A stretch of 64,000 nt of DNA. Origin: Yamagishiella unicocca. Its lineage: Eukaryota; Chlorophyta; Chlorophyceae; Chlamydomonadales; Volvocaceae. The stretch's first letter is position 1; each line of letters begins with the position of its first letter. The translations under genes and the position numbers were made by a program. Positions 79 to 59,100 of this stretch are shown here, piece after piece. The DNA lies in contig BDSL01000175.1 in the NCBI GenBank assembly GCA_003116995.1, positions 1 to 64,000 of the forward strand, read 5' to 3'. The notes under the pieces were generated by a model, which had not been told where the DNA came from, did not search any database, and saw nothing but the letters and a program-made list of their open reading frames with translations.

Positions 79-3000
79 GAGCGCGAGCGGCTGCGGTGGC
101 GCGCCCGCGGACTGGACGACCTGGACGTGGTGGAGGATGACGTGGAGGAGGTGGGGGGGGGGGCGGCGTGTAGGCGGGGCGGCGGGGCGGCTGGCTGGCT
201 GGCTGGGTAGTATGTGCGGCCTGCGTTTCATGGGGGGCCGGCCGGAATTGCACGGAGGAGGGGGTTGCCTGGGACCTGCACAGCCTTCATTGGTTGTGCA
301 GGTCCTATTTAACCTTCATTGGTTGGGTTCCCATCCTCATGAGCTGCCGCGCCTCATCTCTCGCCTCATCCGCCGCCAGGCCTCTCGGCTCGAGGCGCTG
401 ATTGAGGAGCTGACGGAGAAGGCCGCCCTGCAGCAGCAGCAGCAGCTACTGCAGCAACAGCAGCAGCAGCTACTGCAGCAACAGCAGCAGCAGGCGGCTG
501 CGGCTGTGGCGGCCGCTGGCGGGGCAGCGGGGGTGGCCGGGCCCGGGATCACTCCCGGAGGCTCGCTGCCCGCTGCCGGGGCCGGGGCCGGGGCCGCTGC
601 CGGCGGCTTCTCTCCCTCCAACCTCACCGCCCTGACCGCGTGGGGAGCCGGCGGCGGGGTCTGCGGCGGCGGCGGTCGGCGCCTCAAGACGGCGACGGAG
701 ATGCTGGCGGAGGCTAAGGAGCGCCGGCAGCGGCTGGAGCTGGCGATCAGGGGCCCGCCGAACTGCCAGGCAAGCGGCGGCAGCAAGGGCGCACTGCGTG
801 TGTATGGGATGGTTTCGGAGCCTCAGGGGACTCGGGTGGGGTCATGGTCCCGCCCGCCCGCCCAAAGGTTACCTCTCAGCGGCTGAGCCGTCCATGCAGC
901 ACCCCACAAGCCGCGCTCTCATGGCACCTCATCACCTCTGAGCCCGCAACCCCCCTAACCCCCCCTACATCTATTCTAAGCGGTTTTCCTCCGTACACGG
1001 GTTTTCCTTGCAATCCCCCCCTCCTGCCCCAGGTCCTGCTGACGGGTCCGGAGCGCGTGGCCTCCCTCATGGACGCCTTGGCCATCGCCGAGTACATCTC
1101 CCTCTTCGGCCGCCTGTGCGGCCTCTCGCCCGCCGTCATGGGTCTGCCGCCCCCCCCGCCGGGAGCCAGCGCTGGTGCCGCCGCGCAGGCCGCCGCCGCT
1201 GCCGCGGGCGTGCTGGCCAGCATGGCCACCGGCGGCGCTACGGCCCCCTCGCCGCTGCGCTGCCTGCAGCACGCGGTGTGCTGGCCGCTGGACAGCCCGC
1301 TGCTGGAGGAGCTCTACTCGGCGCTGCTGCGCTTCCTCATCTCGCAGTGGGTGAGTGGCGCGGGGGGGGTGTGATAAGGTAATCGGGAGGGGGGCAGCGG
1401 GACCGTCAAGGACCCGGTCGCTGGCATGGGGCGGTGGCGGGGCCGGAGAGAGGGGCGGCATGCGACTCCGGCGGGTTCCGGGCCCCAGTTCAGGCTCTAT
1501 TCGTGGCTGGCCCTCCCCCACTGGCTTCACCCAGTTGTGCTCCTCCCCTCGTGTAACCCCTCCTCCACCCTCCCCCCCTCGTCCTCAGGTCCGCACGGGC
1601 GGCCCCACGCTGGCCGGCCGCCTCAAGCGCTGGCTGCGGCTGCTGTCTGCCCCCGGCTGCTGGCCCGAGGTGCTGCGGCGCTACCTGCTGCTGTCCAGGC
1701 GGGTGACAGGGCGGGGGGGCGGGGGGCAGTGGTGGGTCGGCGGAGCCGAGCGGAACGGAGGACGGTGAAGGGGACGTGGTGCAGCCCTGCCAGGGGGGGC
1801 TGACCCCGCTCTGCCATGAAGTGCTGATGCCGCCCTGCCGTACGGGCAACCCCCTCCTCCCCCGGTTCTTTTTTGCAACCCCTTCCGCCCCCCAGGTCCC
1901 ATGCATCCCGAAACGTCTTTCCTAAACGGTTTTTTTTTCTCGCATTCACGGGTCTTCCTCGAAACCCCCCAGGTCACACGTGACAGTGAGCCCCGCTGAC
2001 CTGGCGGACCGGCGCCTGGCGCTGCTGGCGGATGACTGCATGGCGATACAGGTGAGGCGGGGGTTGGAAGGTCGCGGGGTGAGGCCAACGGTGAGGCCAA
2101 CGGTGAGGCCCAGTTGATGCGGCCATCGGTGCACGAGGCGTTTTAGGTGTTGGAGGGGGCCAGGGTGACAGACACCAGGACGGAGTCTCGCTTCAAGGCT
2201 ATGTGATCGCCCGCCCTGACGCGCATGTTCCCCTCCCCCCCCTCCCCTTCCCAGGCCGCTGTGCTTCTGAGCCACTCGCCCTACTTCACGCAGCCCCCCG
2301 CCTTCCACCTGCGACTGCTGGCCGCACTGTGCAACGACGCAGCGGGGTGTGACGGCACCAGGTCGGAGATCAGCAACCGCCAGGTGGGCGGGACTGGGGC
2401 GGGAGCTGGGGGTTGGGGGTTGGGGGGACCTAGCACCCAGCTGGAGCTGGGGGTAGGGTTGCGTGGGAGGAGGGCTGCCGGACAGTGGGGCCGGAAAGAA
2501 GGTCGGGGCTACCCCAACCCACCCACCCAACCCAACCCAACCCAACCCAACCCAACCCAACCAACCCAACCAACCCAACCAACCCAACCAACCCAACCAA
2601 CCCAACCAACCCAACCCAACCAACCCAACCCAACCAACCCAACCCAACAGGACGCCCTGGAGAAGCTGCAGGTGCAGAAGTACCACTCGGATGCGGAGGT
2701 GAGGCCGGGGTCGCGAGGAGTGCGTGTGCTAGGAGCCAGGGGCATGGTGGGATGGGGTCCAGGTTGGGATCCCGCTGGCGGCGATAAGCCAGAAAGGGAT
2801 GCCGGCGACGTGTTGGGTTCGTTGGTAGCGAAGCTCATTTGCCACCCATTAGCCGTGCTTCTCCTCCGTTCCCTGTCCACATCGCTTTCCATGTCGGCAC
2901 ACCCTGCCCTGTGTTGCCCGGGGCTGGCCAGTTCCGCAAGCGGGAGAAGCAGCAGCAGCAGCAGCGCCGGGCTGCGGAGCGCCATCGGAGGCAGCAGCTG

Positions 3001-6000
3001 ATGGAGGCGGCGGCGGCGGCGGCAGGGGGCGGACCGGACTATCACGGTGGGGAGGACGGCGGAGGCGGCAGGGCGCCGGGGCCGGCTCGAGGACGCGGCA
3101 GGGGAAGAGGCCGGGGTCGGGGACGGGGACGGGGCCGCTCCTTTGCGGTAGCTCTTGAGGGCCCTGTTGGCGGCGCGGCGGCGGGGGCTGGGCTGGGCGG
3201 ATTGGATGGCGGCGGCGGAGGAGCAGGCGGGGCGCCCGGCAGCGGCAGCGGCGATGAGATGGCGGCGACGCCGATGCTGACGTCAGCGCCGTCACACCAG
3301 AGCGGCGGGCCGCTGGCGGAGGGAGGCGATGAGGATGACGGCGGCGACGCGGAGAGGGACGCGACGGCGACGCCGCCGCTGGCGGCGGCGGCCACGGCCG
3401 TGGCGGCGGCGGCGGCGCCTCCGCCGGCGGTGCCTCCGGGCCCTCCGGGGGTCCTTGGCGACGACGATGATGACGGCGGGGACTCGGCCGGTGATGACGG
3501 CGACGACTCGGCGGCGGAGGAGGGCCAGGGGGTGAGTCGCGGGGGGCCGTTGGGCCGAGCAGGGAGGGGCTGTGGGGGAGGTAGGGCGGGGTGCGGAGGC
3601 GGCGAGGGACCGGTGCTTAGGGCGGATGCCCATGTACTACTATTGGTACGTGCCTGCAAGGGGGCGGTGGAGTCGCCAGCAAGGGATCCGACCTGCCCCG
3701 TGTTCCTGACGCGCTGCCGCAGCGGCGCAAGCGCTCCAGGGGGGCCTCGGAGGCGGAGCTGCGTGCTCGCGAGGAGGAGTGGTTCAGCCGCGACAACTCG
3801 CACGAGGCGGAGCTGCGCAAGGTGGCGGTGCGCCTGGAGCCGCTGGGGAGCGACAGGTGGGGCGCAGGGCGGCAGAAGGGGCTTCGAGGAAGACCCGTGG
3901 ATGCGAGGAAAAACCGTTCAGAACAGACGTTTTCAGATGCATGCTGGAGAACTGGGGCAGAAGGGGCGGGGGGGGGCCAGAAATGAACCGGTTACTCGGC
4001 CGAGGTGGGGGAGCAGTGAGGAAGCTCGTGCAAGGGAGGGGGTCCCAGGAGGGAGGGCGGCAAGAGGGGGTGTTGAGACAAGTAACGCCCCTCCTCCCTC
4101 CCATCTCGCTCCACCGGTCCTCCCCCCTCCGCCCAGGTACCACCGGCGCTACTGGCTGCTGGGCGGCGCTGGGCCGCTCCTGTTCGTGGAGGACGTCTCG
4201 CAGCCGGAACACGGCCTGGGCACTCCGGCGGCGCAGCGGGTGCAGCACCCGGGGCCGCACACAGCCTCGGGGGGGGCGCAGGTCGCCACGGGGGCAGCGG
4301 CGGCGGAGCCACCCGCCGCCCCCTGCGCCGCGAGCCGCGCCTCTGAGGGAGAGGCCGCAGCTGGGGCCGCAGCTGAGGCCGCCGGCCCCGGCGGCAGCGC
4401 CGTCGTTGAGGCCGCTGACGTGTCCGCGGCGGAGGTGGCGGCCCCGGCGGCTGGTCCGCCCGCGGCCCCGGCTGCTGCTGCTGCCGCCCCGCCCGCCGCC
4501 CCAGTCGGGGTGCAGCAGCCTGCTGTGGGGCTGCTGTCCAGCCGCGAGGAGCTGGATGCGCTGCTGGAGGGGCTCAACCGGCGAGGACCCCGGTGGGTGG
4601 CTGGGTGGGGGGCGGTGGGTGGGCGGGGCTGGGCGGGTGGGTGCGGGTGAGTGCCGAGTGCGTACGGGAACAAGCGTGAAAGGGCAGTTGGGCGCGTGGC
4701 TGGAGAAGGGAGGGCACGTTGAGGGGTGCCTACAGTTGCAACTACCCAACTGGTCGCAAACTAACTCCCAACCGACGTACGTGGCGCAGGGAACGTGAGC
4801 TCTTCGCCGTACTGCGGCGGAAGTACTCCCAGCTCGTGGCGGCACTGCAGCCGCCGCCGCCGCCCCCGCCCCCGCCGCCACCCGAGCCGCCGACGCCGCC
4901 GACGCCGCCCCCGCCTCCCACGCCGCCGACCCCGTCCACCGAGACAGACGACCAGGGCGGCCCCGCGCTGCCGCCCGCCAGGGCCGCAGCGGTGGCGGCT
5001 GCGGCTGCTCGGGCTCGGGCCACAGCGGGTGGTGATGATGACGACTCTGAAGCCACCCAGTCGGTGGACATGGGGGGAGCCAGGGCCGCAGCAGCGGATG
5101 ACATGGAGGTCGACTCGAAGCCACCAGCGGCGCCGACGGTTGCTGCGGGTGCGGGTGCGGGTGCGGTTGCGCCGGTGGATGTTAAGGTCGAGCTGCCGAC
5201 GCCGGTTCTGCGGGGGGCCGCTGCTCCAGCGGATCAGCCCGCCACCACCACCGTCATGGTAAAGGAGGAAGCGAAGGAGGAGGCGATGGGGGAGGCGAAG
5301 GAGGAGGCGAAGGAGGAGGCGATGCAGGAGGCAGCTGCAACGGTGGCAGCAGCAGCGCCGGAGGTGAAGGCGGAGGCGGTGGCCGGCGGTGAGGCGGGGC
5401 CCTCGGCGCCCCAGGCTGAGGCGGAACCGGAGGCTGAGGATGGCGGGAAGAAGGCGCCGGAAGGACCGGCAGGCGCCCCCCCCTCCGCCTCCGAGCAAGC
5501 AGCCCCTAAGGCGGAGCCGTTGGAGCGGGTCGAGGAGCAGAGGCAGGGGACTGCCTCGGCCCCGGAGCAGGCGCAGGAGCAGGCGCAAGAGCAGGCGGAG
5601 CAGGGGATTTCGCCAAGCAAGAAGGAGGAGGGGCAGCAGGCGGAGGAGCCGGAGGAGGAGGAGGAGCTGCCGCCTGTTAGCAGCGCCGTACTGGAGCTGT
5701 TGGGGGGCCCCCAGCTGCCCAGGGACAGCTTCTGGCTGCGGCGAGGCAGGAGGATCTTCCACATGCCGGATCCGGATCCAGAGCTGCTGCCGGTCGAGGT
5801 GCTGCAGGTGGGTTGGTACCTTTGCCGCGGTGGGGGTGCGAGGAAGGCCCGTGGGTATGAGGGAAACCGTTTAGGAGAGACGTATCGACTCATGGTTCGT
5901 CAGTGAGGGCTCCTGACCACTCCACCTGCCACAACTGCCACCACCTGCCCCAACTGCCACCACAACCGCCACCACAACTGCCACCATAACTGCCGTAACT

Positions 6001-9000
6001 GCCCCCAGGCCAAGCGGTTGCGCTCCGTGCTGTCCCGCACTGTGGCGGAGCTCAGCTGCATGCTGACGGGGCTGGCGGCGGCGGGCTTCCAGCTGGCAGC
6101 GCCGGCGGAGGAAGCGGGAGGGGACGCCGCCGCCGCACCCGCCGCCGCACCTGGCGCTGGCGACAGTGGGGCTGATGGCACCGCCGCTGACGCCGCCACC
6201 GGAGCAGGGGACGCGGCTGCTGGCGGAGGAGGCGGCAGTGGGGATGCTGCCGCCGACGCCGCCGCCAGCGGGGCCGCCGCCGGCGGCGCTGCTGGCGGCA
6301 GCGGCTCCGAGGGCGGTGAGGACGGCATCGAGGCCTGGCGGGAGCGGCTGAACGCGTGCGAGCGAGAAGGCGACGCGGCGGCCCTGTTGGAGGCGCTGGA
6401 GCGGCTCGAGGTGCGGCCGGGGGGTAGTGCAGCGGGAGGGCAGTGGGGAGCAGCCCCTGCGGGAGTAGGGTTTTTAAGGAGAGGCCATGTGTTAGGAAGC
6501 CCATTAAGACACCGTCTGGTGCATGCATACGGTACGTTTGGAGCAGGGGGCGGGGGTTAGGGGAGGTTGTGTTGGGGTGGCCCACGTGTCGCTGTGCAGC
6601 CCTTGCAGCGGGCCGCTCCGATCCCTCACTGACGAACCATGAGTTGTTCCGGTCCTCCTCCTCCACGTTGCCTGGCCTGAAAGGAATCTGAACCCATGCA
6701 CCCGCTGCCTCCTGGTCCGCAGGCCGCCATCAACGGACTGGGCGAAGGGCTGCCGGCCGGCGGCGACGACGCCACCCTGGCTGCTGCGGTTTCGGAGGCG
6801 GAGCTGTACGAGTCGGAGTTCATGCTGGCTCCGCTGGACCCCTCCTACCCGGCGCAGCTGCAGCAGCTACTGCGGCAGCAGCGGCAGCAGGGGGCGGCGG
6901 AGGCGGCGGCGGAGGGGACCCCGGCGGAGGCCGGGGCCGCTGAGGCTGCGCCGGCAGCGGCCGAAGCGGCGCCGACGGGTGCTGCTGCTGCGGCGGCGGC
7001 GGCGGCGGCTCCAGCGGAGGCGGAGGCGGGGCAAGCAGGCGACGGCACGGTGTCAGCTGGCGGGGAGGGCACGGAGGGGAGCCAAGGCGGCGGCGGTGCG
7101 GCGGCGGGCGGCGCGGCACTGCCGGCGCAGGTGCCCCTGGCGGAGATCGCGGCGGCGGCGTCGATGACGAGTCGGTGAGTGGGAGGGGGAGGAGGGGGAG
7201 GGGCGGGTGGTGAGTGCGGCGTGTAGGGGCGGGTGAGGCGAAGGGGCGGAGTAGGGTGCCATTGGGCTCAGGTAGCATCGAATACAGGTACTCTGATACA
7301 CGCCGGCTACGTGGAAGGGCACTCGGCCGCACGTCCGGCCGCCCGCCCTCCCCGCTGCCTCACTCGTGTCGCTGCCTCGTGTGCGCCCCAACCCCACCCC
7401 GCCACCACGTCTGTTCTAACCGGTTCTGTCTCGCATCTACGGATCTCCCTCGCAACCCCGCCACCGCAGAGGCCGGGTCCGCATACCGCGACAGCGAACC
7501 ACCACCACCACCACGACCGCCGCCGCTGCGGACCCTACCGTGGCGTCTTCCGGCCCCCAGCCGCCCCCAGCGCTCCCGCCACCCGCTCCTGCCTCTGCCT
7601 CCGAGGCCGCCGCTGACCAGGGGACGGCCGCCAGCGTGCCACTCCCGCCAGCGCACCACCCCTCACCCACCACCACGGCCGCCGCCGCCGGCTCTGAACC
7701 CGGTCCTGAGCCCATGTCGATCGACGGGCAGTCTGCGGTGGTGACGGTTTCCACGGAAGCCGCGGCGGCGGCGGCGGCGGCGGCAGCACCCGCTGCCGCC
7801 GCCGCCGCCGGCGGTCCTCTCCGCCTGGTTGCGGCTCTGGACGAGCTGGACGACAGCGACAATGAGGAGGAGCGGCTGCGCAACAGCGCCGACCCCGTGG
7901 TGTCGGGGGTGCCGGACCTGGAGGCGGTGCTCAACCTGCGGCTGTTCAACCCGGCCAAGGGGGCGGCGCTGTGGAGGTCGGCGAGGGAGCGGGCGGTGTG
8001 GCTGCGGGACCTGCGGGCGGCGGCGACGGTGGCGGGCGGGCCCACGGAGGCGGCGGCGGCGTACTCCGCCAACGTGCTGGTGGACAGGTGCTCGCCCATG
8101 ATCAAGGTGGGGGTGGTATAAAAACTGTATTACGCAACGGGACAGGATAGATGGCGCATGGTCGCATGGCGCGGGGGGCCGGCGGGAGTGGGCAGGTGGG
8201 TGGGTTGCGAGGTGGGGAAACCCGTGTACGCGTAAGAAACCGTTTCGTGACAGACGGCAGGTATGTGGGTGGGTGGGCAGCAGGTGGGTGGGTGGCTCAG
8301 TGCGGCCCGCTGACCGCCAGTCAAGCACTGCACCAGCCGTCCTGACCGCCAGACCCGGCCCGACCCGCCGGTCCGTCCTCGCAGGCGGCAAAGCGGCGGC
8401 GGGAGTTTGAGGCCCTGGGCGGGGCGGCCGCGGCCGCAGCCGCAGCCGCGGCGCGTAAGGCCAAGAAGGGCCCCGCCGCGCTCATCGCACTGCTGGGGCC
8501 CGCAGCCGCGGCGGCCGCCGCCGCCGCCGCGGCCGCCGCCGCCGCCGAGTACCCCGACCTGGACTGCTACACGGACGACCCGGCGCTCATCGGCATGGGC
8601 TCCTCCGCCAGCTGGACGGGTCTGTGCCTGCGCTGTGGACTGGAGGGCGAGCTGCTGTGCTGCGACGGCGCCGGCTGCAACCGCGCCATGCACCTGTCGT
8701 GTGCAGCACTGGCGGACGTACCCGAGGGGGACTGGCTGTGCCCCGTCTGCATGCGAGCAGCCGCCGGAGGCGGCGGCGGCATGGTGGCGGGCGGCGGCGG
8801 CGGCGGCGAGTACATGTCGGATGACGGCATGGATCCGCCGCCGCTCCACCAGCCTCGTGGGTACGCGGCGGCGGCGGCGGTCCAGGCGGCGGCGTACCAG
8901 CAGCAGCATGCGCAGCACCTGACGACGCGGCGGCAGCTGGCGGCGGCGGCTGCCGGTGTCGGCGGCGGAAAGCGGAGCCGTGAGGCCTCCGTGGACCCCT

Positions 9001-9080
9001 CGGGTGGCGCCATGGCGTCGGGGGTGACCATGACGCGGTCGGGGCGGCGGGTGAAGCAGAACCAGCGGGAGGACATATGA
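79..9080 (+). CDS. DDT-WHIM-PHD chromatin remodelling accessory protein (5' end outside window)
   Basis: Fifteen exons are in view: 79-150, 380-769, 1033-1350, 1589-1698, 1973-2051, 2255-2383, 2651-2698, 2932-3531, 3723-3856, 4137-4592, 4790-5807, 6009-6410, 6723-7174, 7470-8106, 8385-9080. All phases agree and give 1846 residues plus TGA. Numbering from the first visible codon: a Gln/Ala-rich stretch (~38-70); a DDT-like helical domain (155-260, with LMDALAIAEYISLFGRLCG); a WHIM1-like helix ending LRRYLLL (261-297); an Arg/Gly repeat; a WHIM2/WSD motif LGSDRYHRRYW (~624-634); long acidic and Ala-rich linkers; and a PHD finger (1696-1738) with all C4HC3 ligands (CLRC, CCDGAGC, HLSC, CPVC). 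This order is that of ISWI-partner proteins (ACF1/BAZ and plant RLT types), which position nucleosomes with an ISWI ATPase. That role is inferred. The gene starts upstream of base 1. The intron after 1698 needs a GC donor (GCGGGT) to keep frame and is the least certain junction. Confidence 0.85.
969..1020 (+). repeat. Dispersed intronic element, copy a (forward, before 3' splice site)
   Basis: Block order TTCTAA, CGGTTTTCCT, TACACGGG, TTCCTTG, AATCCCCC. It ends 12 nt before the acceptor at 1032. Related copies lie at 1900-1970, 3882-3943, 5832-5895, 7402-7461 and 8202-8260. Confidence 0.6.
1900..1970 (+). repeat. Dispersed intronic element, copy b (forward, abuts 3' splice site)
   Basis: Contains CATGCATC, AAACGTCT, CTAAACGGTTTTT, CTCGCAT, CACGGGTCTTCCTCGAA and a C-run that merges into the acceptor AG at 1971-1972. 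It is nearly identical to the reverse complement of 3882-3943 over about 60 bp. Confidence 0.75.
2514..2649 (+). repeat. CCCAA/CCAACC tandem array in an intron
   Basis: About 135 bp of near-perfect CCCAA and CCAA units fill the 3' half of the intron 2384-2650 and run straight into the acceptor AACAG at 2650. The array therefore occupies the place of a normal pyrimidine tract. Confidence 0.9.
3882..3943 (-). repeat. Dispersed intronic element, copy c (reverse, after 5' splice site)
   Basis: Reverse complement of copy b, starting 25 nt after the donor at 3857. It shares the CATGCATC end, ACGTCT, AACGGTTTTT, CTCGCAT and CACGGGTCTTCCTCGA blocks. A shorter degenerate copy lies at 3977-3995. Confidence 0.75.
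5832..5895 (-). repeat. Dispersed intronic element, copy d (reverse, after 5' splice site)
   Basis: Read on the minus strand it gives ATACGTCT, TCCTAAACGGTTT, CCTCATACCCACGGGCC and TTCCTCGCA. It begins 24 nt after the donor at 5808. Confidence 0.65.
7402..7461 (+). repeat. Dispersed intronic element, copy e (forward, before 3' splice site)
   Basis: Blocks CACGTCTGTTCTAAC, CGGTTCTGTCTCGCAT, TACGGATC and CCCTCGCAACCCC. It ends 8 nt before the acceptor at 7469. Confidence 0.65.
8202..8260 (-). repeat. Dispersed intronic element, copy f (reverse, 5' half of intron)
   Basis: On the minus strand: CCGTCTGTCACGAAACGG, TTTCTTACGCGTACACGGG, TTTCCCCACCTCGCAACCC. It lies within the intron 8107-8384, about 95 nt after its donor. 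Confidence 0.55.
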
Positions 9081-9112: not shown

Positions 9113-10856
9113 GAGCAGGGGGGGAGGGGAGGGGCGGCAGGAGGCCCCGCTGTACGGCAAGGAGCGAGGGGGGCCCCCGCTGTACGGCATGATGCCCGCC
9201 CCCTCCCCTACCAGCTGGCAGGGAGACGGGCGGGCGGGCGGGAGGGCGCATGGCTGCTGCCTCGATGAGGTAGAGATAGGCACGTGGGTGGGGTGTAGGG
9301 GGGAGGCACGGCACGGCACGGCGCAGCCCCGGTGGTGGTGGGGTTGGGGGGTTCAAGAAAGAACCGTTTACGGGGGGGATGGACGGCCACACGCGGAGGG
9401 GCCGCGGAGCGACTGGGTCCGCAGTGGCGGCGCCACCACAGTGCGGCGCTGCCCGGGTGCGCCACCATACACGTGGGTGCGCCACCATACACGTGCGGCG
9501 CTGCCCGGGTGCGGTGCGGGTGGTTCAGTTAAGGGTCCGCACATGCACTCCCCCCACGGTGCACCTGCAACGTGACACGGCAGCACCGACAGCGGCACCG
9601 ACAGCGGCGCAAGGGCTGGCTGGCTTGCTGGCCACCTCAGCGGGTCCAGTGGCGTGTATCGGAAGTCCGTCCGTACGGCACTGGCGAAACGGCTCTGGAG
9701 CGGGGGTCACCCCCCGAGCGGTGCGCTCTGCCCAGACCTCATCGCGATATATACCTTCATGTGCGTGTGCGATCGTGTACGGACGTGTACGACGAGTACG
9801 TGTAGATATGCACACACGCACGCACTCGCGTTTCCATGTGCGAATGCAGTGCGGGCCAGCGGGGAGCTAGGGATGTCGTTATTGGTGGAGTTCGTCTTAG
9901 GATGATGATGAGGACAGTGATGGTGGTCAAGTGCGCTGTAGGAGGTGAGGTACTCGGATAGGATACTTGCAGCAGATGTCGGGGAGGGTGCTTGCAGGGG
10001 GTTTCGGGTGGCGCCCCGTCGTGTTTGGTAATTCCGATGGGTGGCTATACATCTTGGTGGCAGTACCAATGTTGAGGGATTGCCGTCATCCTGCATTGTA
10101 CTTGACTGCTGCTGATCCCGGGACAAGGGCTGATGGTATCACTAAGAGGGCGCAGGTAGCGGTACGCGTTGGGTGCGGCCGGGGAGCAATGTGGCGAGCA
10201 GTCGACTTGACATTTCCGACTTGAGACTGCTGGATTGCTATCCCGAGTGTTTGGAGGCAGCGCTCATGCATCGGGATCTCGAAGGCTGTAAATCAGCGCT
10301 GTTACCGGAGGCACTGACTGGCCGCCAAAAGTTGTCGCCAGGCAACGTCGAACGACCTGGCTCCGCTCCAGATGTCGTCACGCGAGTATCAACAGTGACT
10401 GACAGCTGGTAATGGCCAACATAACAACACATGCCATAGCGAGGTCTGTGAGGGCAGGAGACCACACGGGTTGGGAGGGTGGTTGGGCGGTTGGGTCGCT
10501 GCCCATCGCTGCCTTGCCGTTGATGCGCATTTCAGGTTACATCTTTATAGCAGCTGTCATGTGAAGGCATGCTCGTGCATGGCCGTGACTAAAGGTCGTC
10601 GTAACCACATTGTGCCATTCTTGCGGGAACGACTGCGACGTTTTATAAACACGCTTAACTGATGCACACGCCTACGTTCCATTAATCTCAAGGTATATCG
10701 CTGTCTTAACGTGCCGCAGCACCCTGTGCGGCGCCTCATTGCGCTGTGACGTGACGAAGACATTTGCCGTTATCATCTGGCCTTAAATAACATAATATCT
10801 TCTCCGTAGGTGGAGGCGAACAGCGACTCGTGCAGGTTTAGCAGAAACAAGTTGCC
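9113..10856. other. Intergenic region with the 3' UTR of the PHD gene
   Basis: No gene is recognised here. A TGTAA polyadenylation candidate for the upstream gene lies at 10287-10291, implying a 1.2-kb 3' UTR. A partial reverse copy of the dispersed intronic element is at 9344-9375, and a 20-bp direct repeat (GCGCCACCATACACGTG) occurs twice around 9458-9497. Confidence 0.5.
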
Positions 10857-25799: not shown

Positions 25800-28700
25800 T
25801 CAGTCCTGGTGGTGCTTCACGCCGGCGACTGCTCCCCAGCTGGCTCCCAAGTAGCGGGCGACGGCGGCGGGGGAGGCGGCCGCGGAGCGCAGGTAGACGT
25901 AGCGGTGGTGCAGGTCCATCGTGAGTCGGATGGTGAAGCCGATGCAGCACTTGCGGACAGCTCCCAGCAGCGAGGCGGACAGGCCGCTGGTGTACCCGAT
26001 GCGCTGGAAGAAGAGGGTGGTCACGACGAAGTCGTACAGCAGCACCAGTACGGCGTACGGCAACGGGCACTGCGGGCAGGGGCGGGAGACCAAGGACAGG
26101 GCGGGCTGTGTTGCGGAGGCTTCAAGGTTTCGGGAAAGCGGGAGAGAGCGAGAGAGCGAGCGTAGGAGAGCGAGTCTCCGCAACTACAACACGTCGTCAC
26201 GCCACGGTCAGTTCGCATGGGGCCGCCGGCGGAGAGGGATGGCAATACAGAGGGGGAAAGAACCCACTGATTGCTCACGTGCGTGCCGTACATACCGTGA
26301 CTGATCCCATTAACCCCGTTGTACAACCGGTTGGGCTTCAGGCGGCATGCCGCTAAGTCGGTTTGCGGAGGCCTTACAGGCACCTCCGCACTGCTCTACC
26401 CGCCCCGTAACTCCGAAACCAATCCTCGACCCCTTCCCTCCGCCCCAAGCTCCTGCCCCCCCCTTGCGCTCCCATGTCGAGTAACCGGTTCTTTCCTGCC
26501 CCCCTGACCTCCCCCCTGCGCTCACCGGCTCGAACAGCGCCGGCAGCACGCAGTCGGACACCAGTGTGGCGCCCTGCTGCACGTATCTCAGGGTGGACGC
26601 GGGCAGCTGCACCCAGCCGGCCAGCTGCACCACCTTGGCGCTCGTGCGCAGAGCGCTCGTGAGGCACCACCAGCCGCCGCGGTGAGGCAGGTACAGCCGG
26701 AAGCTGCGGGCAGCGGGGGGCCGGGGCGGGGGAGGGAAGCGGGGCGGGGCGGGGCGGCAGCGGGTTATGGCGTGCATAGTAACTGCGAGTGCCAACCAAC
26801 ATGTACGAAGTCTGAAAGGAACAAAACACCTGGGCCTGAGGCCAGCCGACTTAGCCTCCCGTACTTGGCCTCCCGTACTTGGCCTCCCGTACTTGGCCTC
26901 CCGTCCTTGGCCTCCCGCCCCAGCCGCCCCCCCTAGTCGCACAACACGCGAGTGCGGCGCCACCTGCCGCCTGCACCTACCCCGGCACGCCGTTCATCAC
27001 CGCCAGCATCATGAAGTATGCCGACGAGAACAGCAGCGGCGCCGGCAGGTCCCCCCGCCGCACCGGCTGCTCGCGGAGCGTCCTGGACAGTGCGCTGCAC
27101 AGCAGCATCAGGTGCACCACCACCCACACCCGGCACAGGGGCAGCGTGCGGCGAGTGACAGAGGCCTGGTAGCGCGACTCGTCACCGCCATCAGCGGTGA
27201 GGGTACCGGTGCCCGCGCCGGCTCTGGACACCTGAGTGCTGCCGCTGCTGCCGCCGTCCCCCTGGCCTTCAAAGCCGGCCAGGCTGGCCCAGAGCAGCCG
27301 CGCCGCCGCCACCAGCACAGATCGACGCCCGGTGGAGTGCGCGTACCCGCCACCTGGCTGGGCGGGAGTCTCCGCGGCGCCACCCTCTGGATGGCGACTT
27401 GGCACCTGGCAGCACCCTGCCACCTGCCGCGCCAAGTGCGCCGGTTCCTGATCCTCCGCCGGCGCCGGCACCGGCTGCCCGACATGCCGCCGCCAGCTGG
27501 CGCCAGCACCCCCCTGCTTCTGCGCCGCCAGCTGCTCGGGGGTGAGGCCTGCTGCGTCCCGCGCCGTGCACCAGGCCCGGCGCGCTCCCTCCCCTCCGCT
27601 GTCCAGCGCCCACTGCAGGGCGGCAGCCGCCAGCAAGCCGTCAGAGGCCGCCAGCACGTGGAGCGGAGTCAGGCCCTGGCCGTCACGCAGCCCCCACCAG
27701 CAGCCGCCGCTGCCGCTGCTGCTGCTGCTGCCGCCGCTGCTGCTGCTGCTGCCGCCGCTGCTGCTGCTGTCCAGAGCGCCGCTCCCACCTGCAGCAGGCT
27801 GAGCAGCCGCACCACCACCACCGCCACCACCACCATAGCCTCCTGGTGCGCCCTTCAGCGCAGCGGAGGTGGAGGCTACTGCGGCGGCGGCGGCATCCGG
27901 TGCATGGGGCAGCTGGTTTCGGAGCAGCAGCGGAGAGTCGGAAGCGCAGCGGCCCTCGGCGGCGGCGGCAGCTGTCTGCGCCCACGCCGCCGCCGTACGC
28001 AGCATGGCCACGTCACCCGAGGCAGCGGCCAGGTGCAGCAGCGACGGACCAGGGGTGGCGGCGGCGGCGGCGGCGGGCCCGTCAGCGGCGGCGGCGGCGC
28101 CTCCCGAGGCGCGGAAGACCTCCGCCACGTCGTAGCCCAGTGCCTCAAAATCCGCCATGAGCCGCTCCGCCAGCGGCCCGCAGCCGTACGACACCACCGC
28201 CTCCAGCAGCGCCAGCCCCACCCGCAGCAGGGTGGCGGCGTAGGCGGGCTGCCGGCGGCGGCCCTCCAGGACCTCCTCCCGCAGGTCCACGCTGCCCGAG
28301 AGGAGGATGGTGGAGGCGGCGGCGGGACGCAGGGAGCTGCCCGAGCTGCGGGCTGCCGGGGGACCTCGGCTGCTGCTGCTGCTGCCGCGCTCGCCGCTAG
28401 GAGCCCCGGGCTCCGTAACCGCCGCCCCTGCCGCCGCCTCCGCCGCCTCCGATGCTGCCGCCCCTGCCGCCGCCTCCGCCGCCGCTACCTGCAGGTTGTC
28501 GTGGACGAACTCCAGCCACATGCCCAGATCCGTCACCAGCTGGTCGGCGGTGCTGGGTTCGGCGGCCGCAGCTGCCCCCGCGCCGTCCACACCGCCCTGC
28601 TCCTCCTCGTCCTCCTCCTGCTGCTGCGCCACCAAGGCCGCCAGCTCCCCGGCCATGGCCGCCATGGCGGCGGGCAGCAGCAGCAGCGGTTTGGCTGCCA

Positions 28701-32408: not shown

Positions 32409-35400
32409 TCACGGCTCCCAAATCAGTTCTTTCAGCAGCCCTGGAAAGTACTTAGTCACGTCCTCTTCCAGGAACTTCCGGGCGGGCTTGATGAAGCGCC
32501 ATGTGCCGACCAGGTTGCCGTCTTCCCCCTCCGTGATGTTCCTGAACGAAATCGGGTTGTACGTCATGGTCTCCGAGTACCCCTCGAAGAGCTTCAGCCA
32601 GAAGCACTCCCGCGCCTCTCTGGACAGGTAGCGTCCCGCCAGCTGTTGCGCCTCCAGCGCCATCTTATGCGCTGCGTCGTCGTTGCCGCGGGCCCAGTCC
32701 ACTGCATCCAGGATGTCCTCCGGGCCGGACCCCACCTTCCAGACCGGAATGTAGTGCTTGTACGGCTTCATAAGGTGATGGTAGAAGGCCTGCACGCGCC
32801 GGTTGGGTTCAGTTAGGTTCGGTGCTGGAGGCACTGCAGCGCGAGCACCAGCGACCAAACGTTTGACCCAGCCGGTCCCAACATGCCCCAACATTCCCAC
32901 TTGACCCTCCACGGAATGCCGAACGCCACCTGACACCGTATTCACTAACCATGTAGCCGGACTCCTCTTTCATCACCAGTGACCCAAGGGTCAGCAGCAT
33001 CTCGAGCTTCGAGGAGAGCCCCTGGAGGCGAAACGCGGGTGGAAGAAAGCGGGAGAGGGACGCAGGATACGAGGGATGCTGGGACTGGTCCAGTCGTACG
33101 GTACGATCAGCAGAAGTGGATATCTGCCCGGAATGCTAGTATGCACACCGCTCTAACCCCCGCTGCCGACCCACATCATTTTTTCCGCGCGGAGAGGAGG
33201 AACCCTCACCCTGCGGACTCACACTTGCACCCTCGCGCGCTACTGCCAGGAAGCCAGGTGCTGGCTGGACCCCTCGGGCGCGGTGTTAACGAAAGCAACG
33301 TATGCCGCGATTGCGCGACCTCATCAACTGACAACTTGCTCGCTTTGCTGCGCCCAAACCGGTTTGGCGTGCCCGCTAAAACCCAGTCAGTCCGCCCCTC
33401 CCCTCCCCCCCCTCCCCTCACCGCCCCACACCGCCCCCTCCCCTCCCCGCTCCCCACCTGCCCGTCCACGTGCAGCACGTAGCGGTAGCGAGCATGGTCG
33501 CTCATGGGCAGGTGCTGGTGCATGCTGATGTCCAGCTTGTCGCTGCAAGGCACGACATCAGGGGAGCAGGCGCGACCCACGGGCCAGCAACGGAGATGGC
33601 TGGCGAACGTATTGCCAAACGGAGCCACCGCTCCGTGAAGCGCAGGCGGGCCACCACGCCAACGATGACAGCAGCCCCCTACAGAGGCACACGTCCCTCC
33701 CCCCCCTGCTGCCTCCCACGTGCCTCCCGCTCGCGCCCTTACGTGTAGTTCTGCGCCCAGTGATGCAGGAACTCGCGCACGGGGCATATGGAGGTGCTCA
33801 GCCCCTTGTACACGCACAGCGGCGTGCCTCCCGGGCCCAGGCGCTGCGTGTTGGGGTCCGCGGGGTGTACGTAGCGGGCGTAGCCGGAGAAGCGCGCGAT
33901 GAGCTTCTGCAGGCGGCCGGACCAGGGCAGGTCGGCGTTCAGCTGGTCCATCTTGTCCAGGAAGTCGGTTTGGTAGCGCTTCATGTTGAAGTGGAAGTTG
34001 GGGACTGCGGGCAGCAGAAGGGGCGTCGGGGGCAGGCATCAGCGTCACTTCGGTGGTGTGCTGGGGTACGGAGGTAAGGCACCAGAAGATATCCACATGT
34101 GGTAGCGGCAGTGGGTGCCAGGGAGACGCAGGTCGCGTCACTCGGAAGTCTTCAGACTCCGACGGCGAACCCGCCACCTAAAACCCCGCTCCCCCTCCCG
34201 CCGCCACCTAAACCCTCCCCCCGCCGCCACGCACTGAGTATGTCCGGGTGCGCCGCGCTCTTGCAGAACCGGAACACCGGGTAGTTGATGCCGTCGGTGG
34301 TGTTGGTGAGGCGGACGGGCCGGTCGATGGTGTGCCAGACGAACTCCACATCGGGCAGCACGGCGCCGTACGTTTCCTCCAGGTGCAGCAGCACCTTGAG
34401 GTAGGCCGCCCACAGGGTCACCTGCGTGGTAAGTACGACACATGGAGCTGCTCGGCCGGCCTGCCGGCCTGCGCACTGTGCCTCCCCGCGTGCCTGCCCG
34501 CGGCCCGCGTGTCTCAGCAGCCTGACCCCAACCACTTACGTGATGCCCGAAGCGCCGGAGGTCCATGCCTTTGGTCTTGGAGATGACGTACACCTTTCCG
34601 TGGTAGATCGCCACCGCAAGACCCTTCTCCCGATAGCCGGCGCTGAGGCAAAGGGTAGGGGGGTTTAAAGAGAATCCGCGAATCCACCGGAGGGGGCCGG
34701 TCAACATGTGTAAAGCCGAGTTGCGGGTGGCGGCCCCTCCGCCTTCAGGCGCAAAGTGTGAAGCGAATGAAAAAAGTGAGGTAAACCAGGTCGTACAGCA
34801 TGGTTTCAGCATGGCTTTCGGATAGATGCATGGCGGCATGTAGGACCCAGGAAGTCCAGTCAGGGGGCGGCGGGGGATTTAGCCCTTGGCGAGTGGGCTG
34901 GAGGTATGGACGGGCGAGGGGGCGTGGAGGGAAGGAAAGGGCACGGCAAATCAGGAGATCTGGCAATCAGCAGCGCCGGCTCAGCAGGCTGCCTACACCT
35001 ATGCCCAGCCACACTGCTCAACCAGGCGGCGCACTAAACGTTCAGGTGGCCAGGAAAATCATAACTCTAGATGAATCCTGATAACCCCTCATGCATAGCC
35101 GCGGTCCAGGGATAGCTATAGCGATGAGACCGCCGGCTGCAGTGTGCATCGATACCGTACCACTCCGTGCGGACATAACTAGCTCTTCGTAGTCGCGACC
35201 CAATTGCCTATCCAAGCATAGCAATGCGACGACGAATCGCCACCCCTGTATGTCAACCTGGCGTCCATACCTGTGCGTGGCCATTGTGCGGTACAAGAGA
35301 TTGGGCGTAATACCGCCAGTCCGCTTGAAGAGGCTGAGATCGCGCTCTATCGATTTGTAGAGTGGCGCGTAATTGTCGCATTCTTTGGGAATGGGATCGC

Positions 35401-53543: not shown

Positions 53544-55142
53544 ATGGTCCCGGCCGCCCGCACCCGAGCTGCTGCGCTGCGGCCGATGCAGCAGCGCTCT
53601 CAGCCCCGCTACCAGTACCTGCTGTCCCTGCCGCCCGCCTATCACGAGTGGCCGCAGCAGCCCTGGCCGCTCGTCCTGTTCCTGCACGGCGCAGGGGAGG
53701 GAGGGTCCGGAGAACTGGACAGGGTAGGGCCGGGGGCGATGGCGCGATGCGGGAGCGGATGTACGGCACAGAGCAACTGCAGGTTGTGAGGTAGAGGCTG
53801 CGGCTAAAGGGGATCCCTCAGCGGTGCAGAGCCGGGCGGGGTGACCCGCGCTCCACGGCTAGCGGTGATCGTCGATGCCGCTCCCAGGCCCTTTGCCTTA
53901 CCGTACCCCCAACTCCCCACATGCTCCCGCCTTCCGCGTGTCCGAGAAAAATCGCAAGTTAGTTTCTGCTCTCTTCTCCTGTGTCGCTCAACCGGGTCTT
54001 CTCGCCCCCCGCAGGGCCATGCGCCAACTATCCCGTCCCTGTCACGTAACCGGTTGTTGTGCCCATCCCCCCAGGTCAAGCTCCACGGTGTTCCCCGCCT
54101 GGTGGCGGCATACAGCGGCGACGAGGGGGCCCGGGTGGCAGGCAGCCGGCCGGAGCCCGTGGATCCCGAGTGCGCGTCTCTGGTGGCGGAGGGCGCCCTC
54201 ACGGTGGCCCCGCAGCTGGACTACGCACGTCACGGCTACGGCTGGCGAGTGGAGGGCCTTATGGCGCTGCTGGACGAGCTGACAGGGGCGAACAGGAAAC
54301 AGCACCCGCAGCCCCAACAGCAGCGGCAACGATATGAGCCATGGAACGTCAGCAGCAGTAGCAGCAGCAGCAGCGGTGGTGGCGGAGGCAGTGGTACCCG
54401 AGGGGGCAGCAGTGGCGGAGGAAGTAGCGGCAGCGATGTGCTGGAGGAGCCCCCCGTGCTGCTGCCGCTGCGTGTGGACACCAACCGGGTCTACGTGACG
54501 GGTGTGTCCATGGGCGGGTACGGCACCTGGCAGCTGGGGGCGGCCCACCCGGAGCGCTTCGCAGCGCTGGCGCCCGTGTGCGGCGGAGCCGACCCGCGGG
54601 TCGTTTCCATTGCGGCGCTGCGCGACGTGCCCATTTGGACCTTCCACGGCGAGCAGGACGAGGTGATTCCTGTCTCGGCCAGCGAGGAGGTCATGGAGGT
54701 GCTGCAGGTGGGTCTGGGGAGGGAGCAGAGGGCAGGTGGGTCTGAGGGAGCAGAGGGTAGGTGACGGACTGCGACGTACGTGGTACCTTTACCAGGAGGC
54801 AGCTCCGGGACTTGGGTGGTTGCCGCGGATATATTTCCACATCACACGTTATCGACCCACGGGTCAGGCGCTGACTGTGTATGTCTGTGCCGCTCCCTCC
54901 GCCTCCTCGCGGCCCCCCCCACGGCGTAGGCCTCCGGCTCCGCCGCCCGCTTCACCCGCTACCCGGACCTGAGGCACGACTGCTGGACGCGGGCTTACAA
55001 CACGCCGGAGCTGTGGCGCTGGATGCTGGACCAGTCCCGGACCCACCGGGACCAGCAGCAGCGGCGCCAGGGCGGCGGCGGAGCTCGCGGGGGAGGTGCT
55101 GGTAGAGGCGGGGGCGGGTTGGGGGCCCCGACCCCCCGATGA
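53544..55142 (+). CDS. Alpha/beta hydrolase, predicted esterase/peptidase with PHB-depolymerase fold, 341 aa
   Basis: Exons 53544-53723, 54075-54707 and 54930-55142 (TGA). Phases are all 0. The frame is also open upstream of ATG 53544, so a longer N-terminus is possible. Family blocks appear in order: YQYLLSLPPAYHEW, WPLVLFLHGAGEGGSGE (oxyanion region), VKLHGVPRLV, the nucleophile elbow VYVTGVSMGGYGTW with Ser205, FAALAPVCGG, IWTFHGEQDEVIPV with Asp255, and RHDCWTRAYNTPELWRWML with His287. The complete Ser-Asp-His triad implies an active enzyme. The family covers secreted or organellar esterases and predicted peptidases; the substrate is unknown. A Gln/Ser/Gly-rich insert (~137-180) interrupts the fold before the nucleophile strand. 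TGTAA at 55649 supports the 3' end. Confidence 0.85.
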
Positions 55143-55648
55143 TGGAGGGTTGGAGATGCACCATGCACACAGTGTTCTTTGGATTGTGCGATGGTGGTGC
55201 AGCGATGCAACGACGAAATAAAGTGGTTTCGTGACGCAAAAACGTCGTTCTTGGGCTATCCTCGGCGACCAATTGAAAGCGGTGGTGGTGGTGGGCGACT
55301 GGGTTGTGCTCGGGGGGCTTTTATAAGAGAATCCGCGAATCCACGGCCGACAAACCGAGGGCGGTGAAGGTGATGGTCCAGCGGAGAGGCTTGAGGGGCA
55401 GTAGTACCGGATATCGGATGACCGGTACTAGGGTGACCGGTACTAGGACCAGGGGGATAGGGTCCTCAGCTGGATGTGGCCGGGGGGCAGCAGCGCAGGA
55501 TATCGCCGCGCAGTCTACCGGGGGGCGCTGAGGACACGTGAGCGCGCCGCGGCTGGGGGCTGCAGCAGCTCCCTTACGAGGTCATTACTGGTGAAAATAG
55601 GTTCACATCCACGGCTGGTGTCTGTGTATAAAGCGAAAATGGGAGTTG

Positions 55649-56182: not shown

Positions 56183-59100
56183 ATGGCGGCCGCCCTCAGG
56201 CTCACGGTGTGGGCTGCGGCACTGACGTGCGGGTCACTGCTGCTGCTGCTGCAGCCGCTGCCGGCCGTCCACGCCATGACAGCCCCCGACCAGCGTGAGT
56301 CCACCCTTCCCCCCGGCTCGCTTGGCCGCCCCTCCCAGCTTGGCCTAGGATGGTGGACGGCCCGGTACCCCCATCACCCACCCACCCACCCACCCACCGA
56401 CCCACCTGGGAATGGCCCCTGCATGCAGTTGCCGCACTCATCGCCCTACGTGACGCCAACATCAACAAGAGCGTCTCCTGGGCTCGCACGCTGTCGCACT
56501 GGACCTGCCCCACCGACCCGGCGGACTCGGACCAGCCGTGCGACCCCTGCTCCAAGGACTGGAGCGGCAACTGGGAGTTCATCCACTGCCGCGGGGCGCA
56601 AGGCGGTGAGTCCCAGGCCTCCCGGGGGTCCGGGGACCTGCGGGGACCTGCAACCTGACGCAGGAGCTCCAGGGCTGGCTGCGGGACGCCTGAGGGCCGG
56701 GGGGGCGGGTGGGTGTTGGGAGTGGAGGGGCCGGGAGACGAGGTGCTGGGCTGCAAGTGAACTTCATCCCTCACTTGTTCGGTCCTCAGTGAAATGGAAA
56801 CGTTGCCATTCATGCGATTGTTAGTTTGGCAAAGTTGAAGCAAGCTCCCCCGCAAGCATGGCCCTGGCTCTGACACCGACCCTGCACACCGCGCCTGCAT
56901 CCTCTCGTCCCGCCCCCGGCCCGGCTGCTCCACCCCGCCGTCCTTGTCAGCGTACGGCGAGAGCTCCGACGGGCGGTTCGACGGCCTGGTGACCAACGTG
57001 CACATCACCGACCAGAAGCTGGAGGGGCCGCCGCCCCGTGAGTGACGGAGAGTGCCGCACCTGGGTCCGCGCGGAGGGAGGGGAGCTGCGCACAATGAGT
57101 GCACCTGGCTAGGCCAGCTTTGCCTCTGTCGCTGCTACCCGGTCGTGATGAACTACCAGTATCTCGCCCCGGGCCTCCACCCCTCCCCTCCTGCCGAGTC
57201 CATTTTTGTGACCATCCACCCTAGTCCAGTAGCATGTGCGCGCGTTCAGGTGTCCGAAAGCCATGCACCCACTACAATTCCCTTGTCGAGTCAACGGTTC
57301 TTTTTTGTAACCCCCCTCCTGCCGCCCCGCCCGCAGGCGAGCTGTGCCGGCTGCAGCACCTGCGCGAGCTGGATCTGGACGGATCCAACTTCAACGGCCC
57401 CTTCCCCGACTGGATACTGTCGTGCATGCCGCTGCTGCAGGAGCTAGACCTGTCGTACAACAGGGTACGTAGGCGCGACGCAGCGCAGCGGGAGTTATCA
57501 GCGGGGGCCGGCTGGGCGGCGAGGTGCTCCGAAGCCTTCTTAGAGCCCGTCCTGGTTTGGGATTGCAAGAGCCGGGTTCGGGGTGGCCTGCTAACCAATC
57601 ATTTTCAGTATGGCGCGCGGCGCCGCTACCTGGCTATGCTGACCTCGCCTGATCGCTGGCCACCTCTGCTTCCGCGCATGTGCAGTTGACGGGCACCCTT
57701 CCGAACGAGATATGGCGCAAGAGCTCGCTACAGGAGTTCAAGGTCCGTACCGGGGGAGGGGTCAGCGCTGTCGATCTTGTCGTTTGTGTGTCTGCTGCGA
57801 GCTGGCTGCCAGCTCACCCCGTAGCCGCACCCCTGCGGCGCAGTTGCCTGCTGGCTGGCCCAGACAGTGTGACCCGCCTCACATAGCCGTGCACCTCGCT
57901 TCGCCTCACTCCGCCTCATTGCCAGCTGACGGGTGGATGGACCGCTTGGCTGACCCCTGCCGCCTCCCGCCCACCCACTCAATCCGCTTTACGCCACCCA
58001 CATCCCCATCCGCGATCGCCTTCCGGCCACCCGGGTGCGAAGATCGAGTACAACGAGGTGCGGCCCTGCGCACGCAGCAGTCCGGGTGGAGGAAGGGGGA
58101 TGGGACGGGGCATATCGTAAGGCGGCTGCGGCAGCGGCAGCGAAACTAGGTCTTGCTGAGCCCTGGCACAGGGCTTTTTTAAGCTAATCATTATTGGATA
58201 TTATCGCACGTTTGTTGCCTTTGCGACGCACTTCTCCGGCTTGTGTATGAACGATCACGCAGCCATTGCATCATGTTGCGCGGTCTCCAGAAGCCGCCCC
58301 CCCCCAACACCTCCCTCCCTCCCCCGCCTTGCTCCCACCATCACGATCCCCAGTTCGTGGGTACCATCCCGCCTGCTCTGGGAGACCTGCCGCGCCTGCG
58401 TGAGTGGCTCTCGGCTTAGGAGCTGGTGGAGCCAAGTGGTGGAGGGCCGCTTGTTGGATGTACGACGGAGGCACCGCCGGCAAGGGGCCACAACGAAAGG
58501 ATGTCGCAGCTGGGAATTGCGCAAGATGATGCCGCTAAGGGTCCATTGACCGCACAACAACTGGCCGCCAGCTGCCTCCACCCACCCGCCGACATGCCCC
58601 GGTGTACGCCTGCGCCCCCGCGCATCGACCCACATCGACCCTACATCGACCCACATCACTCGCCAAGCTCATAAAGCCACATAGCAAATACCGCCCATCG
58701 ACCCACATCGACCCACTCGTACATGCAGGCGTCCTGCGGCTGGAGCACAACCACCTGTCGGGCACCATCCCGCAATCGTTCAGGTGAGTTAGGGGAGAAC
58801 CCCAACGCACATTTCAACTCTGCATTGTCCGTCCATCCGTCCCCGCACCCAAGGACTGCACGGTATATGCTGTCGGGCCGCCATCCGGACCCCAGGCCTA
58901 CTGCTGCTGCAGCGTTTTTCTTGCAGCCCTGCTGCTGCTGCTTGCCACCCCGGACCGCCGCCCGACCGTTTGACCGATTGATTTCTGGTCCTCCGACCCC
59001 GCAGCAAGCTCTCTGGAGTCCTGAACGGCGTGGAGCTCGCCGGCAACAAGTTGAAGGCACGTTGCTCGCTTGGGCGGGCGCACGTGTCTGTGCTTAGCTG

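Follow-up and report, generated by a model that had tools for sequence, protein, structure and literature searches.

Short elements lying beside splice sites in the introns of one gene of the volvocine green alga Yamagishiella unicocca are very probably 3′ fragments of a high-copy retroelement of the non-long terminal repeat (non-LTR) type that inserts at runs of C (C-runs) in strand-asymmetric introns. The gene lies in the stretch of DNA analyzed here, positions 1 to 64,000 of contig BDSL01000175.1 (C175:1-64000, hereafter the window; assembly GCA_003116995.1, 133.4 Mb in 1415 contigs), and we refer to the element as family A. The first-pass annotation of the window had described a dispersed family of intronic elements, each oriented according to the splice site closer to it, and that description now stands on 103 copies; an even spread of copies without orientation bias was not seen. 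The mechanism is an ordinary one in an unusual niche, and the pattern is real and striking.

The gene that hosts the first copies (79..9080, plus strand) is modeled with 15 exons in the window and 1,879 amino acids without an inner stop. Using a family A profile built from relatives, nhmmer recovered all six copies that had been reported in six introns of this gene (E values of 8e-25 to 0.002 for the 356 kb searched), and the copies are mutually alignable. On the plus strand, copy a (967..1016, E = 4e-6; intron 836-1032) ends 16 nt before the acceptor at 1032, copy b (1900..1967, E = 8.7e-17; intron 1732-1972) 5 nt before the acceptor at 1972, and copy e (7407..7458, E = 2.5e-9; intron 7175-7469) 11 nt before the acceptor at 7469. 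On the minus strand, the 3′ end of copy c (3879..3956, E = 8.3e-25; intron 3857-4136) lies 22 nt after the donor at 3857, that of copy d (5833..5888, E = 2.2e-7; intron 5808-6008) 25 nt after the donor at 5808, and that of copy f (8203..8256, E = 0.0021; intron 8107-8384) 96 nt after the donor at 8107. Copies b and c, earlier called near-identical, are ∼86% alike with a 3-nt gap, as counted by eye in the alignment. The profile search found no further family A copy in the rest of the window at E < 1. The distribution is patchy, with all six copies within the first 8.3 kb and none (E < 1) in 9600-64000.

Genome-wide, the 21-base core of family A gave 3511 + 3489 = 7000 matches with at most three mismatches and its reversed pattern 10; a second family, B, gave 2806 matches vs. 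2 in the control. Copy counts below come from the window plus 58 of the 60 tail loci, which are the best-scoring family A copies and were fetched by similarity alone (L001 lies inside the window and L047 overlaps L013). From 106 family A hits, three lacking the 3′ end were left out, which resulted in 103 copies; L059 and L060 are mutual duplicates (92% over 2.2 kb), so that one insertion event is counted twice. Introns and exons were assigned by a hidden Markov gene finder self-trained on the sample without transcript input, and its output comprised 260 complete introns (121 occupied by copies and 139 copy-free) with clear donor and acceptor profiles. The predicted proteins of the window are long and uninterrupted, and one of them has seven relatives, all from volvocalean green algae, at 48–59% identity (Volvox reticuliferus at 59%, Chlamydomonas, Edaphochlamys, Gonium and Astrephomene).

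By these gene models, 97 of the 103 copies are intronic, six nongenic and none exonic. The density of runs of five or more C (C5-runs) is 14.0 per kb for introns, against 4.8 for exons and 3.8 for nongenic sequence, and the split of 97 intronic vs. 6 nongenic copies is compatible with the C5-run counts in these two compartments (p = 0.11). Exons hold 347 of 2,004 native C5-runs and, in the main gene models, not a single copy, which suggests selection against insertions there.

The aligned loci share one common 3′ end, and their upstream break points differ. Copies measure 20–1,254 nt (median 87, n = 103), and 97 of the 103 retain only the last 20–212 nt. In 101 copies, the element end and the start of a CCC are at most 3 nt apart. 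Flank pairs were more alike than re-paired flanks (Mann–Whitney p = 5e-18), and duplications within 60-nt flanks beat 95% of the controls in 26 of 101 copies, against an expectation of 5%. The check for target-site duplications thus turned up variable-length duplications at the 3′ junction: the detectable ones span 12–51 nt, 20 of the 26 start 0–1 nt from the element 3′ end, and in 22 of the 26 the upstream duplicate begins with a C-run. Because the C-run forms part of the duplication where one is detectable, it belonged to the target, and the earlier proposal that the C-rich end of the element supplies the pyrimidine tract has to be turned round. As read from the sequences, the fixed 3′ end, the 5′ truncation, the C-run junction and the duplications together are the signature of target-primed reverse transcription.

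We scored a copy as concordant when its 3′ end points at the nearer splice site. In complete introns, 87 of 89 family A copies were concordant (52 sense in the acceptor half and 35 antisense in the donor half, with 2 otherwise), although this figure, like the 156 of 158 for A, C, D and E combined, is inflated by the copies' own length. After removal of the known copies from the introns, 82 of the 89 family A copies were concordant, as were 85 of 95 copies of the further families B–E described below (B, 19/26; C, 27/30; D, 26/26; E, 13/13). In gene models that masked the copies and used neither intron-composition nor pyrimidine-tract scores, concordance was 73/79; that run placed 11 copies in nongenic sequence, 8 in exons, masked letters being free of signal, and 5 in partial introns.

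The rule mainly reflects intron base composition, since copy-free introns have the same C-run asymmetry. From their first to their last fifth, donor to acceptor, G falls from 51 to 18% and C rises from 20 to 51%, and 388 of their 448 native C5-runs are themselves concordant. Across families A, C, D and E, native runs of at least four C, matched on distance and C content, predicted 131.0 concordant copies of 151 (7 of the 158 were left out for having too few matches), and 141 were observed (P = 0.0045); the excess was larger in the uncorrected comparison, partly because the copies' own length was left in. A C-run target thus explains most of the orientation rule, and a modest excess remains, for which possible causes are selection acting on splicing, a more finely tuned target preference and remnants that escaped masking. 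Outside the known copies, runs of five or more C or G are denser in occupied than in free introns (17.4 vs. 11.6 per kb) with the same gradient; the higher density fits targets attracting insertions and duplications adding runs alike.

These observations can be put together as follows. The element RNA would end in about ...CCTCGAAACCC, and a nick in a C-run would expose a 3′ terminus of Gs on the DNA, able to pair with the CCC end of the RNA and prime reverse transcription, the priming G-strand being the one that the model predicts. Synthesis would usually stop early, so that mostly 3′ pieces are kept, and repair would duplicate target sequence beginning with the C-run. With introns G-rich at the donor side and C-rich at the acceptor side, the sense strand would offer targets near acceptors and the antisense strand near donors, so that a copy inserted in either orientation would have its 3′ end facing the splice site. 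At acceptors, the pyrimidine tract would be retained because the target C-run stays between the element and the AG, probably making the insertion tolerable, and insertions in coding exons would presumably be removed by selection.

Other explanations share parts of this evidence. The first-pass annotation had leaned toward an introner-like or miniature inverted-repeat transposable element (MITE)-like family. An introner makes its own intron, giving one splice site and taking the other from the target duplication, and the many copies ending 2–16 nt from a splice site have that appearance, as does locus L058, where by eye the duplicated stretch adjoins the donor. Introns with copies are indeed longer than those without (median 440 vs. 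260 nt), but once the known copies are subtracted, the occupied introns still have a median of 335 nt vs. 260 nt in the free ones (n = 121 and 139), and the residual intron is at least 72 nt in all 121. None of the 121 is left with <60 nt and one consists of >60% element, two introns of the window each hold copies of two families, and the varying 5′ breaks provide no fixed second splice site. As the copies sit inside residual introns of at least 72 nt, they lengthen existing introns, which appear to predate them, and the introner explanation is very improbable. Remnants of MITEs or other DNA transposons would also be short, abundant and near genes; here, only the 3′ end is fixed and the 5′ end is not, inverted repeats being judged by eye only, and the duplications vary in length and start at the 3′ C-run, which makes this origin scarcely credible.

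More weight belongs to the idea that selection on splicing makes the rule, with insertion occurring at any C-run and copies in the wrong half or on the wrong strand purged for disturbing splicing. The small excess over the matched expectation and the absence of exonic copies are what this would produce. As the C-runs of copy-free introns are already 87% concordant, selection is left to explain the remainder only, and we consider it possible, if unlikely, that it is the source of the rule as a whole. A distinct question is whether the elements are nonautonomous Penelope-like retroelements rather than of the type of long and short interspersed nuclear elements (LINEs and SINEs). Copies of Penelope-like retroelements are 5′-truncated and repeat their end segment in tandem, an arrangement typical of these elements. 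Family A resembles them in its 5′ truncation and in one tandem, a copy of ∼2 kb (L094-L095, C71:238200-242400) whose two ends carry the same 340-nt stretch at 99.7% identity. It differs in that the genome yielded three matches only (C1, C30 and C103) to GIY-YIG, a nuclease domain of some Penelope-like types, in open frames of 96–168 aa and none beside a listed long copy; furthermore, the tandem is the one case looked at, and Rfam gave no hammerhead match among the sequences scanned. A Penelope-like origin is thus rather unlikely. The ∼2-kb element may be described as tandem or pseudo-LTR-like; no reverse transcriptase (RT) is seen in it, and its 3′ 340-nt stretch continues up to the limit of the fetched sequence.

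Returning to a non-LTR-type retroelement inserting at C-runs, several results weigh against it. Family B fits the orientation rule less well than the others, concordance somewhat exceeds what C-runs predict, and 75 of 101 copies have no duplication exceeding 95% of the controls. The end-repeated ∼2-kb copy looks more like the tandems of Penelope-like elements than like a plain LINE. No conserved 3′ hairpin was supported in a consensus fold of 31 chosen copies, which had three pairs at −0.61 kcal/mol and no base-pair change on both sides. A 3′ stem-loop is expected of the stringent types only and is not defining for all LINE and SINE types. Finally, no RT tied to the family was found among 150 RVT_1 places scored of 610 candidates, and the family tail was not found at 30 other RT loci with 1.5-kb flanks. 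Within 12 kb of the 134 listed family places, scored RVT_1 places occurred on three contigs only (C24, C99 and C129), which by estimate is about chance; of the 98 weak matches to Exo_endo_phos_2, places on C30 and C129 likewise came within 12 kb, near chance by estimate. At C99:369341-376787, a long plus-strand copy of family A has a plus-strand RVT_1 match 7 kb upstream, which may be chance or the partner, and this match is the only nearby RVT_1 place noted as same-strand and upstream. Relatives in Rfam at the gathering score were limited to two transfer RNA genes, adjoining on the minus strand at L043:2586-2760, the other matches being weak and chance-like.

In the long copies, related 3′ sequence extends over ∼770 nt or more. 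Comparing positions, we found seven places where an open frame stops 85–100 nt before the family A 3′ region, and open frames of up to 896 aa surround the C-terminal piece and of up to 1,258 aa another piece. These sequences indicate that a longer relative with an open reading frame and the same 3′ region exists, its encoded protein being putative. A LINE family with open frames of 1,489 aa (L096/L097) was considered as the parent and dropped, as no family A tail occurs in the 1,551 nt checked downstream of one LINE copy, beginning ∼600 nt past the matched piece. Despite this, a related LINE piece lies 58 nt before the family's open-frame piece in the copy on C126. Downstream of a LINE copy on C92 that has a 1,489-aa open frame, L097:445-638 is a U2 spliceosomal RNA gene (Rfam, 143.6 bits), and this LINE is possibly U2-associated.

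At least four further short families (B–E) with different tails occur in the window and the loci L002–L060 and likewise end at C-runs. At E < 0.1, the window contains five copies of these outside the host gene and two within. The two within share introns with copies of family A: a family D fragment (3978..3998, minus strand, E = 6.6e-4) with copy c, and a family E copy (8112..8159, minus strand, E = 5.6e-13), whose C-rich end is at the donor, with copy f. Three stretches that had been taken for shorter relatives of the six copies (26474-26500, 54034-54074 and 57284-57319) belong to families D, E and D and have other tails. The first is a family D copy (26454..26501, plus strand, E = 1.9e-9) in antisense orientation within an intron (26070-26525) of a gene on the minus strand, its 3′ end near the donor at 26525; the second is a family E-like copy (54019..54057, plus strand, E = 2.9e-4) before the acceptor at 54074, and the third a family D copy (57261..57313, plus strand, E = 1.4e-11) before the acceptor at 57336. 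A fourth presumed relative (9344-9375) scores no better than chance against the profile of family A (E = 3.0) and matches none of B–E at E < 0.1. Two family B copies, both on the minus strand (34659..34707, E = 3.8e-10; 55316..55365, E = 5.2e-16), lie outside predicted genes. By eye, families C, D and E have a common upstream motif like GTGTCCGACGRCTATGC, and family E has CTCCAGCATGC in common with family A; these shared motifs suggest that tails have been swapped between related families.

The host gene has two further features. Its last exon has one relative (P0001), which carries PF00628, the PHD finger. Its intron 2384-2650 has a long AACCC-type repeat up to the acceptor (window 2500-2650).

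A broader interpretation, which we regard as speculative, is a guild of retroelements with different tails for which intron ends are a safe haven and splice-proximal C-runs are read as primers, combined with a feedback in which the duplicated C-runs help to build and keep the mirror-image G-to-C gradient of introns, which in turn draws further insertions. If this were true, the excess over the C-run expectation would be a further link to splicing or transcription.

Compared by description, the closest described kind is the SINE/LINE pairs of Chlamydomonas. In the part of PMC3747384 cited here, SINEX-1 to -6_CR of Chlamydomonas reinhardtii pair with RandI/Dualen or L1-1_CR LINEs, and the 3′ repeats listed for SINEX are (ATT)n, (CTTT)n and (A)n. 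The listed tails of green-algal LINEs are (A)n, (CATA)n, (CA)n, (CAA)n, (TAA)n, (ATT)n and (CTATTT)n, with (CCAT)n, (ACAATG)n, (CTTGTAA)n or none as further entries. Like these green-algal pairs, the elements of Y. unicocca are short retroposed copies with the 3′ end of a longer element and have several tails per genome; unlike SINEX and the LINEs as described there, they have a target-derived C-run at the junction, and no (C)n is among the listed tails (PMC3747384). Target-specific non-LTR retrotransposons, among which the cited part of PMC5035012 names R2 and those in small nuclear RNA genes, microsatellites and telomeric repeats, are a mechanistic analogue in their sequence-directed insertion that avoids gene disruption. 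Family A is directed to C-runs as a loosely defined class, not to a single site, and as a result occupies introns as a niche in which its orientation follows a rule (cf. PMC5035012). Introners likewise have many intronic copies touching splice sites, but, according to the cited part of PMC9860276, they make the intron, and their duplications, where they have them, are of 3–9 bp for earlier families, whereas the introns here appear to preexist, the detectable duplications are 12–51 nt and the 5′ ends vary. The literature searched, exclusive of subscription journals and preprints, contained no report of a C-run-directed intronic retroelement in volvocine algae.

The results mean that primer–target pairing in strand-asymmetric introns can impose a strict orientation on copies at both splice sites without any function in splicing, and they call for caution in calling introners on the basis of copies near splice sites. 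They also suggest how retroelements may lengthen introns and leave the splice sites intact, a route that is open to testing. If several families use one C-run-directed machinery, it would be a retroelement system with a natural preference for introns.

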